DNA of 39,661 nt from positions 1-39,661 of the forward strand of contig JAJEIP010000018.1 in NCBI GenBank assembly GCA_022827885.1. The letters run 5' to 3'. Numbering within the stretch: the first letter of the stretch is position 1; each line of letters starts with the position of its first letter. This stretch comes from Candidatus Poribacteria bacterium. Lineage in GTDB: Bacteria; Poribacteria; WGA-4E; WGA-3G. Made by a program: the position numbers and the translations under genes. The notes beneath the pieces were generated by a model, which worked only from the letters and a program-made list of their open reading frames with translations, searched no databases and was not told where the DNA came from. This document shows, piece after piece, positions 26,640-29,317 of the stretch.

Positions 26640-27290
26640 ATGACAAAATTGTTCAGAACCCTCGCTTTATTGCTGGCAGGCTTATTGTCCTTTTCGCTGA
26701 TAGTCGGCTGTGGTGGTGATACCGAAGAAGAAATCGAAGCTGCACCAGCGAACTTCATCAGTGCCATCCCGTCGGGCGGTGAGATCGCTGTGAATGGGAC
26801 GATTACGGTTACCTTTGACAACCCGCCCGTTAATGTCATAGTCAGTACCGGGACCGTCAAAGTCGCAGGCAAAACAGCGACGATCACGGGGCCTTTTATC
26901 CCTGGTCCGCTCGCATTGACGATCACTTGGGCTGATGGAACCCAAGCACTCAACTATATCGCTACCGGTCCTGACTGATGTGGAGCTATAGTTATTGGTG
27001 GGTCCATCAAAGACGGTGACAAGGATATCGATCCCGAAGCTATCAACAGCGACGGAATTATCGAGATTGAGTTCAGTAAGGATGTCTCTGGTAACATTGT
27101 CCTCCAAACCGAAGGTGGCGATGATGTCGGTTGGATTGGTAAAGTCGAAGGGTACAAGGCGACGCTTGAACTTGTCAAAGGTAGAGAACTCAAGAGCGAA
27201 ACCACCTACGTTATTAGAGGTAAAGTTTCAGATGCTGCTGGCGACACTTTTGAGGTCAGTGTAACCTTTGTAACCAAGGCTAAAGCGTAA
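26640..27290 (+). CDS. Lipoprotein with Ig-like domains; in-frame UGA (selenoprotein or nonsense)
   Basis: ATG 26640 begins a lipoprotein: lipobox LIVGC with C24 after a hydrophobic signal. The frame reads to ATGPD, then TGA TGT (codons 113-114), and continues in the same frame for another 103 codons to TAA at 27288-27290. The continuation (CGAIVIGGSIKDGDKDIDPE..., VGWIGKVEGYKATLELVKG, TTYVIRGKVSDAAGDTFEVS) is a well-formed beta-rich Ig-like domain, as expected after the N-terminal beta domain (AVNGTITVTFDNPP). So the gene is either read through at UGA, possibly as selenocysteine next to Cys, or carries one nonsense mutation. A potential hairpin starts at the UGA (stem GAU..GGA with UCCAUC). 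Function: surface protein, unknown. Confidence 0.7.
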
Positions 27291-27304: not shown

Positions 27305-29317
27305 ATGCAGAAATTGGAGATTGAAGGTCAAACGTATACAAATTCAATAGGGATGCGGTTTGTTAGAATTGAACCGGGGACCTTCACGATGGGTTCAAAG
27401 AACGCTGCGCTCTCAGACGAACTGACAGATGGAAAAGCATACCTCCGCGATGGGGATTGGGACGAACACCCCGTGCATCAGGTAACGCTCACTACGCCTT
27501 TCCACATCGGGATTTGTCAAGTGACGAACGCCCAGTATGAGGCTTATGATCCGGCACACCGTGAATTGAAGAGTCTTCAGAACACGGGTTTCTCGAAAGA
27601 AGACGATGAAGCGGTTGTATTTGTGGATTGGCACGATGCGACGCGGTTCTGCGAATGGCTCTCCGAGAAGGAGGGACTTCCCTATCGACTGCCGACCGAA
27701 GCGGAGTGGGAATACGTGTGCCGTGCGGGCACAACAACCCATTTCCATACCGGCGATACACTGCCGCCTGAATTCCACAAAAACGTTGGAGAGAGTTGGT
27801 ACCCTGATGGAGGACGGGGACGCGGGGCAGAAGAAATTGTGCCTTTGCATGTTGGGCAGACATCACCGAACGCGTGGGGTGTATACGACATGCACGGCAA
27901 CGTAGAGGAATGGTGCCAAGATTGGTATGGAACCTATGAACCCGATCTACAAATTGATCCAGTGGGTAGGGAAACAGGGTTGTATCGCGTTACACGGGGT
28001 GGGAGTCACTCGACGTTACTCTGTTATCTACGCTCAGCCAATCGGATGGGAGCAGTACCAGAAGATAAGCACTGGTACATCGGATTCCGTGTCGTCTGTG
28101 GTGAGATGCCACAGACCGCGCCGATCCCTGCACCGAAGGTGGCATTATGGGGACGTAACGTTAAACAGGAAAACAGAAATGCCAACGCGCCAGAATCGCC
28201 GTATTTTGCGGAGCCATTGACGTTCGTTAAAATTCCTGAAGGTTCAAACGGACCGCTTTTTTCGGCGCATAACCACGTCCCGGCGATCGTGGAATGCCCG
28301 AACGGCGATATGTTCGCGGCGTGGTATTCATGTGTGACAGAACGTGGACGCGAATTGACGGTCGCTGCGAGTCGATTGCGCTTTGGTGAAACCGAGTGGG
28401 ACCCAGCCGAACCCTTTTGGGGTCCGCCCGATCGGAACAATCACGCTACATCCCTCTGGCGAAACGAGAATGGACGGATTTACCATTTCAACGGACTCTC
28501 GGCAGCCGCAACGTGGGGTCCCTTAGCGTTGGTCCTACGCCACTCCGATGATAACGGTGCGACGTGGTCGAAACCGCGCTTTATATCACCCGAACACCGC
28601 CTCCGACACATGCCGATTGCCTCTGTCTTCCGAAGACAGGACGGTTCTATCCTCCTCGCTTGCGATGCAGTGAGTGGTGGAGACGGTGGCACTGCAATAT
28701 GGCTCAGTGACGACGACGGCGACACATGGTCCGATCCCGGTGCAGGACAACCCATTCCTGAATTTGCCGACGGCAAACAGGGCGGATGGATCGCTGGTAT
28801 TCATGCTGCTGTGGTTGAACTCACAGATGGCAGGTTGATGGCTTACGGCAGAGGCGACACCATCAACGGACGGATGCCGAAGAGCCTCTCCGCAGATAGC
28901 GGTAGGACGTGGCATTACAGTGCGAGTCAGTTCCCGGTCGTTTCCGGCGGACAACGGTGCGTGCTGCTACGCCTTCAAGAGGGACCGATTTTTCTCGCCA
29001 CGTTCACAGGAGAACGGAAGACACCGACACCGATGTCGATTGTTGATGCTGCGGGCAATGAACGCCTCGTTACTGGACTCTTCGGGGCGTTATCTTATGA
29101 CGACGGCGAAACGTGGGAGTGTATGCGTTTGATTTCAGATGATGGAGAAGACCGAGAGATCGAGACGATGGATGGACGTCCCTTTACAATGGGGTTAAAG
29201 GATGCAGAACTCGGGGGTTACCTCGCGGTTTGCCAAGGACAGAACGGGATTATCCATTTGATTAGCAGCCGTCAACACTATCGATTTAATTACGCGTGGT
29301 TGAAGGAAAAGGTGTGA
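27305..29317 (+). CDS. Formylglycine-enzyme-like / sialidase-type BNR fusion protein
   Basis: A 670-residue fusion. Residues 10-265 are an FGE-sulfatase (SUMF1/EgtB-like) domain: SIGMRFVRIEPGTFTMGS, CQVTNAQYEAY, WHDATRFCEWLSEKEGLPYRLPTEAEWEYVCR, GNVEEWCQDWYG, then RVTRGGS and GFRVV. Residues about 310-670 are a sialidase-like beta-propeller with four Asp-boxes: SDDNGATW, SDDDGDTW, SADSGRTW and SYDDGETW. No signal peptide is visible. It starts 14 bp after the lipoprotein stop, with AAGGTGG as SD site. The C-terminal part may hydrolyse or bind glycans; the N-terminal part may be non-catalytic. Either activity is inferred. Confidence 0.85.
   Translation: MQKLEIEGQTYTNSIGMRFVRIEPGTFTMGSKNAALSDELTDGKAYLRDGDWDEHPVHQVTLTTPFHIGICQVTNAQYEAYDPAHRELKSLQNTGFSKEDDEAVVFVDWHDATRFCEWLSEKEGLPYRLPTEAEWEYVCRAGTTTHFHTGDTLPPEFHKNVGESWYPDGGRGRGAEEIVPLHVGQTSPNAWGVYDMHGNVEEWCQDWYGTYEPDLQIDPVGRETGLYRVTRGGSHSTLLCYLRSANRMGAVPEDKHWYIGFRVVCGEMPQTAPIPAPKVALWGRNVKQENRNANAPESPYFAEPLTFVKIPEGSNGPLFSAHNHVPAIVECPNGDMFAAWYSCVTERGRELTVAASRLRFGETEWDPAEPFWGPPDRNNHATSLWRNENGRIYHFNGLSAAATWGPLALVLRHSDDNGATWSKPRFISPEHRLRHMPIASVFRRQDGSILLACDAVSGGDGGTAIWLSDDDGDTWSDPGAGQPIPEFADGKQGGWIAGIHAAVVELTDGRLMAYGRGDTINGRMPKSLSADSGRTWHYSASQFPVVSGGQRCVLLRLQEGPIFLATFTGERKTPTPMSIVDAAGNERLVTGLFGALSYDDGETWECMRLISDDGEDREIETMDGRPFTMGLKDAELGGYLAVCQGQNGIIHLISSRQHYRFNYAWLKEKV

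Follow-up and report, generated by a model that had tools for sequence, protein, structure and literature searches.

Bacterial selenoproteins in general combine an in-frame UGA with SelA, SelB, tRNA-Sec and SelD, with Cys homologues at the site and with UGA homologues in other genomes, and in all of these respects the gene described here is alike. The accompanying mRNA element (bSECIS) follows rules that ask for a loop of 3-9 nt with a G in its first two positions, a distance of 16-37 nt from the UGA, a stem of 4-16 bp and a minimum free energy (MFE) of -7.5 or lower, and adjacent Sec and Cys residues are known as well, e.g. the CU of SaoL, SaoC and the KCU-star proteins (PMC13188914). In a sponge microbiome, SelA and SelB co-occur in most symbiont bins (PMC5649159). 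The gene in question lies in a window of 39,661 nt (the whole stretch of DNA that was analysed, contig JAJEIP010000018.1 of assembly GCA_022827885.1), which belongs to a 5.13 Mb draft genome of Candidatus Poribacteria (hereafter G000). A reading of the sequence alone had proposed it as a selenoprotein candidate, and this proposal now finds support in the Sec machinery of the genome and in the recurrence of UGA or Cys at one codon. Decoding of the UGA at 26976 as Sec is considered highly probable, and the product of the gene in these sponge-associated Poribacteria is very probably a complete exported lipoprotein with selenocysteine at the UGA; a whole selenoprotein is preferred over a split gene because relatives have UGA or Cys at the same spot and because the Sec machinery is complete. 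Together with its UGA relatives, the window gene very probably constitutes a selenoprotein family.

The frame had been described as running from its ATG through an in-frame TGA, followed directly by TGT, and then through 103 sense codons to a TAA, all of which proved exact (Table 1). A random open frame of 103 codons has a chance of about 0.5% at this GC, and by itself the open frame is weak evidence; the downstream half is taken as real because of homology, the whole frame being 45-77% identical, over nearly the full length, to dozens of uninterrupted Poribacteria proteins. That this half is a coherent Ig-like sequence is borne out by Pfam, be it through a marginal match to Big_5 (24.0 bits against a curated cut-off of 23.6, E=6.7e-5), and the proposed lipoprotein nature agrees with the signal LLSFSLIVGC (residues 15-24), in which the lipobox ends in the Cys of a conserved G23-C24 and from which lipidation is predicted. 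All of the homologous loci found among GTDB genomes (22/22) are from Candidatus Poribacteria, with several paralogues per genome.

Table 1. Features of the candidate selenoprotein gene and its surroundings (window coordinates)
Feature	Position	Strand	Basis
Complete gene for a 216-aa two-Ig-domain lipoprotein with predicted Sec113-Cys114; TAA stop at 27288-27290	26640..27290	+	Frame translation and full-length homologues
Signal peptide; lipobox LIVGC, of which Cys24 (codon 26709-26711) is predicted to be lipidated	26640..26711	+	Translation inspected; G23-C24 conserved in alignments A1/A2
N-terminal Ig-like beta-sandwich, ~residues 39-109	26754..26966	+	AlphaFold2 model: strands within residues 39-109, pLDDT by block 92-97
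UGA codon 113, predicted selenocysteine, in the inter-domain linker (~residues 110-117)	26976..26978	+	Homologue codons at the site; linker position from AlphaFold2 model
TGT, Cys114, partner of Sec113 (U-C pair)	26979..26981	+	Translation; U-C also in L079 and L081, C-C in others
Minimum-energy hairpin (that of the sequence-only reading), loop AGUUAUUG starting 11 nt past the UGA; weak candidate	26980..27007	+	-10.2 kcal/mol
C-terminal Ig-like domain (Big_5), ~residues 118-216	26991..27287	+	Pfam PF13205 at 136-212; dN/dS 0.20-0.27 versus homologues
Alternative SECIS-like hairpin UUGGUG-GGUC-CAUCAA, loop 22 nt past the UGA, G in the first two loop positions; weak candidate	26995..27010	+	
Next gene, FGE-sulfatase domain and BNR repeats, possible operon partner	27305..29317	+	Begins 14 nt past the TAA

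An AlphaFold2 model built with 17 homologues (mean pLDDT 85.6, pTM 0.52) consists of two beta-sandwich domains, between which residues 110-117, and thus also Sec113-Cys114, are placed as a linker; the mutual placement of the domains is unreliable because the pTM is only 0.52. A thioredoxin-like domain with UxxC or CxxU was found neither by Pfam, which gives Big_5 only, nor in the model, and a sequence search returned no homologue of solved structure. A fold search with the model gave only generic Ig tandems with a low TM-score, and therefore no function can be taken from the structure.

In the model the N-terminal Ig domain is finished before the UGA, which allows the codon to double as a regulated terminator: a stop would give a one-domain lipoprotein, whereas selenium-dependent readthrough would give the two-domain form. 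Sec insertion is generally inefficient, which counts in the same direction, and such a role is compatible with Sec decoding, as it concerns the purpose of the UGA. The Cys-Cys orthologues, however, yield the two-domain form only, and a terminator function is considered quite unlikely. Since the UGA lies in the domain linker, the selenium supply could set both the second Ig domain and the Sec-Cys pair. A joint reading on this basis, with a selenium-dependent switch between the one- and two-domain lipoprotein and with a pair that seemingly arose more than once from a Cys-less linker, after which Cys-Cys, Sec-Cys and lone Sec were exchanged, is regarded as unlikely.

With regard to Sec decoding as such, it had been argued that continuous relatives with either UGA or Cys at the corresponding codon would favour it, and both are found. 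TGA is present at this codon in eight homologues from eight other genomes (L014, L053, L059, L060, L061, L079, L081 and L082). The U-C of the window gene (PD-U-C-G) recurs in two of them (FD-U-C-G in L079, PD-U-C-G in L081), while a lone U is present in six, either as PD-U-P-D-D (L014, L053, L061, L082) or as PD-U-T-D (L059, L060). Cys-Cys occupies the site in 16 homologues (L008, L009, L027, L049, L052, L092-L098 and L099-L102), one of which (L027) is a paralogue from the same genome as the window gene. Some Cys-Cys rows are offset by one residue from the UGA codon (P-CC versus PD-UC), and L096 (PD-CC) could be aligned to the window gene gap-free. The commonest paralogues have a PDTDPP-like linker without Cys or Sec. 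Because six of the nine UGA members are without a neighbouring Cys, the Sec-Cys pair is no general requirement, and because ordinary PDTDPP paralogues are closest to the window gene by distance, the fold can do without the redox pair.

The family tree (51 rows, site columns excluded, with a bootstrap that is not fully settled) places the window gene with a Cys/Sec set at a support of 88/93. L079 falls into a second set of Cys-Cys genes, and L081, which is incomplete and sits on a long branch, joins PDTTAP paralogues. The well-supported branches require the UGA state to have changed five times or more, and the Cys-Cys gene L049 comes out as sister to the UGA gene L053 (97/86). The main points were also recovered in an earlier tree from which the partial rows had been left out. 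In L053, the linker cassette (DUPDD plus the conserved hairpin stretch) matches that of L014, while the remainder of the gene is closest to L049, which suggests gene conversion or cassette exchange.

The sister clade has a conserved locus with an FAA-hydrolase family gene, the lipoprotein, a secreted protein of no assigned family and a LarA-like nickel-dependent epimerase (NF052594, E=1.5e-175), as well as an argC-like gene (semialdehyde dehydrogenase family, Pfam) on the opposite strand. This neighbourhood is found, whole or in part, around UGA genes (L080, L085-L088) as well as around Cys-Cys genes (L008, L009, L027, L049, L084, L092-L095 and L097). Depending on the genome, one syntenic locus carries either UGA or Cys-Cys, and the two are therefore exchanged at orthologous places. 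A gene that lies downstream of the sister lipoproteins (L087:5357-6655 and syntenic loci) encodes a nickel-dependent enzyme of the LarA type, putatively a hexonate epimerase. As a guide to function the neighbourhood was set aside: the FGE/BNR neighbour of the window gene is not shared by the other family loci examined, and the FAA-hydrolase/LarA surroundings conserved in the sister clade give no pointer to a redox role.

Past the UGA, dN/dS is 0.09-0.45 in every pair tested and in most pairs below the upstream value, from which the downstream sequence is judged to be under purifying selection. Over codons 117-123, where a SECIS hairpin is to be expected, five UGA genes (L053, L014, L061, L059 and L060) have no synonymous differences at all (0/66). 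Elsewhere in these genes the fraction is 0.26 on the upstream side and 0.29 further downstream, and over the same codons it is 0.42 in Cys-Cys genes and 0.23 in PDTDPP genes. In a column permutation, 0.5% of the random draws of equal size were without synonymous differences (p=0.005), with the reservation that the pair counts come from related genes and are not independent. Leaving aside the windows that overlap this stretch, only a single further one of 7 codons, located C-terminally, is equally clean. The synonymous constraint could in part be owed to gene conversion among the copies, but such conversion would have to end at the element.

A nonsense mutation, leaving either a pseudogene or a shortened gene with a dead second half, would be tolerable in so far as several paralogues can make up for the loss of one copy (G000 has nine family matches). 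There is, moreover, one stop in the family that has a random look: the Cys-Cys member L052 (contig C71 of G075) has an in-frame TGA at the otherwise invariant Trp97, the only other internal stop in the aligned family core, which looks like a nonsense change or a sequencing error rather than Sec. What speaks against a nonsense mutation at codon 113 is that eight further genomes, spread over several branches of the tree, have TGA at this very codon, that dN/dS past the UGA is low between UGA-bearing genes themselves (0.19-0.35), and that the orthologues have Cys-Cys, while neither TAA nor TAG is found at the site among the fetched homologues. On these grounds nonsense mutation and assembly error, both of which the sequence-only reading had kept as alternatives, are hard to hold, and the former is regarded as very improbable. 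A partial family copy elsewhere (L089, G029 C1:2182186-2182569) is interrupted in frame by a TAG close to the C-terminus and is likely decayed.

Sec decoding also depends on the presence of the sel genes, and selA, selB, selC and selD are all found in G000: SelA, SelB and SelD are matched with E=1.7e-157, 1.9e-104 and 1.5e-107, respectively, and a tRNA-Sec with a UCA anticodon lies ~60 nt past the end of the selB match. As a positive control, the same genome encodes an exported Ig-Ig-thioredoxin with U-P-F-C (L029/L107). Of 85 Poribacteria genomes, 81 have a SelA match above the cut-off of the family, mostly at full length, a count which takes in some weak partial matches that are perhaps other enzymes. 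The SelD of G000 (L119, contig C144:60983-61906) has an in-frame UGA of its own (CAG-U-ASK), UGA-containing SelD being a known selenoprotein arrangement.

An assembly or sequencing error at 26976 has a practically negligible probability, for although the window gene is known from one draft genome of 148 contigs, independent genomes, including the single-contig G082, have TGA at the same aligned codon. Equally slight is the chance that UGA stands for another amino acid (e.g. Trp) through code reassignment or leakiness: of the stops used by the main genes of the window, TGA is the least frequent (4 of 24), but it still terminates genes there, homologues have Cys and never Trp at the site, and the genome has a complete Sec system.

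The hairpin that had been folded by eye after the UGA does exist as the MFE fold, but it is no stabler than dinucleotide shuffles (z = -0.65) and its loop is closer to the UGA than the 16-37 nt of the rules. The alternative hairpin with the GGUC loop fits the rules for loop, stem and spacing but is weak, its local energy being -6.2, with 12% of synonymous recodings of the window gene matching or beating it. The stretch conserved among these five UGA genes folds as GUGUCA-CGGG-UGGCAC at 16 or 19 nt from the UGA; the best hairpin of the G000 SelD has the loop CGGGU at 16 nt, and those of the Sec-thioredoxins have AGUU at 23 nt. Median hairpin energies are -4.9 for UGA genes, -3.6 for Cys-Cys genes and -3.15 for PDTDPP genes, and synonymous recodings do equally well in 9-39% of cases. 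No single SECIS fold was clearly better than shuffles or synonymous recodings, including those of the positive controls SelD and Sec-thioredoxin. Because these controls fare no better, the energy test has low power, and with UGA genes only slightly ahead, hairpin energy was dropped as uninformative for proving a SECIS. From the sequence, a SECIS in the window gene is plausible.

Taken together, the UGA at 26976 would be decoded by the SelA, SelB, tRNA-Sec and SelD of G000, steered by an mRNA element directly downstream, and the product would be exported and lipidated at Cys24. In the linker between the two Ig-like domains, the adjacent Sec-Cys would be the selenium version of the Cys-Cys of relatives. 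Whether the role of the protein is redox is put at about even chances. If it is, the pair would most likely act as an extracytoplasmic redox centre that can alternate between selenol/thiol and a vicinal selenenylsulfide, and its re-reduction may be achieved by the exported Sec-thioredoxin of G000, which is fused to the same two-Ig module and, being in the same compartment, is a natural candidate reductant; its gene and the window gene are unlinked. Lone-Sec members would need another resolving thiol or another role, e.g. metal binding.

To our knowledge, Poribacteria are known from uncultured organisms only, and the Sec trait is kept almost throughout the phylum. In this family Sec is placed in the linker between the two Ig-like domains of a lipoprotein and not in a classical oxidoreductase fold, and the alternation of UGA and Cys-Cys at one locus offers a natural set for asking when selenium pays outside the cytoplasm. 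Standard gene callers will cut these UGA genes short, and the UGA genes of the Ig-thioredoxin type are probably called truncated as well. The latter fusion occurs at 13 or more loci (L018, L019, L021, L022, L104-L106, L108-L111, L114 and L115 in addition to L029/L107); L029/L107 itself (contig C37 of G000) comprises a signal peptide, dockerin-like repeats, several Ig repeats, a final Ig pair and, at the C-terminus, a thioredoxin domain whose UGA is in U-P-F-C.

As regards what has been catalogued, neither an Ig-like/Big_5 lipoprotein family nor Poribacteria turned up in text searches of a 2026 review of 119 selenoprotein families and subfamilies (PMC13188914), the deep-Sep paper (PMC12013277) has no such family, no NCBIfam model matches the window protein, and a literature search found no paper on Poribacteria selenoproteins; it therefore looks like an uncatalogued selenoprotein family. 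The nearest relation within the genome, the Sec-thioredoxin L029/L107 (UxxC), shares with the window protein the Ig-like module, export and a UGA, but there the Sec is at the thioredoxin active site (UPFC) rather than in the linker, which reads PDTEAP and is without Sec or Cys. SaoL, SaoC and the KCU-star proteins likewise have Sec beside Cys, whereas the window protein has the order U-C in a tandem Ig-like lipoprotein fold, and its family has C-C as exchange partner and some members with a lone U. Compared with Big_5 proteins (PF13205), its C-terminal domain is a borderline member, just above the Pfam cut-off, and we are aware of neither Sec nor vicinal Cys pairs in the linkers of Big_5 proteins. 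The recoding system is a standard one; what is unusual is that an Ig-like lipoprotein has Sec in its linker, and that Sec and Cys-Cys have been exchanged repeatedly while other linkers of the family are without Cys.
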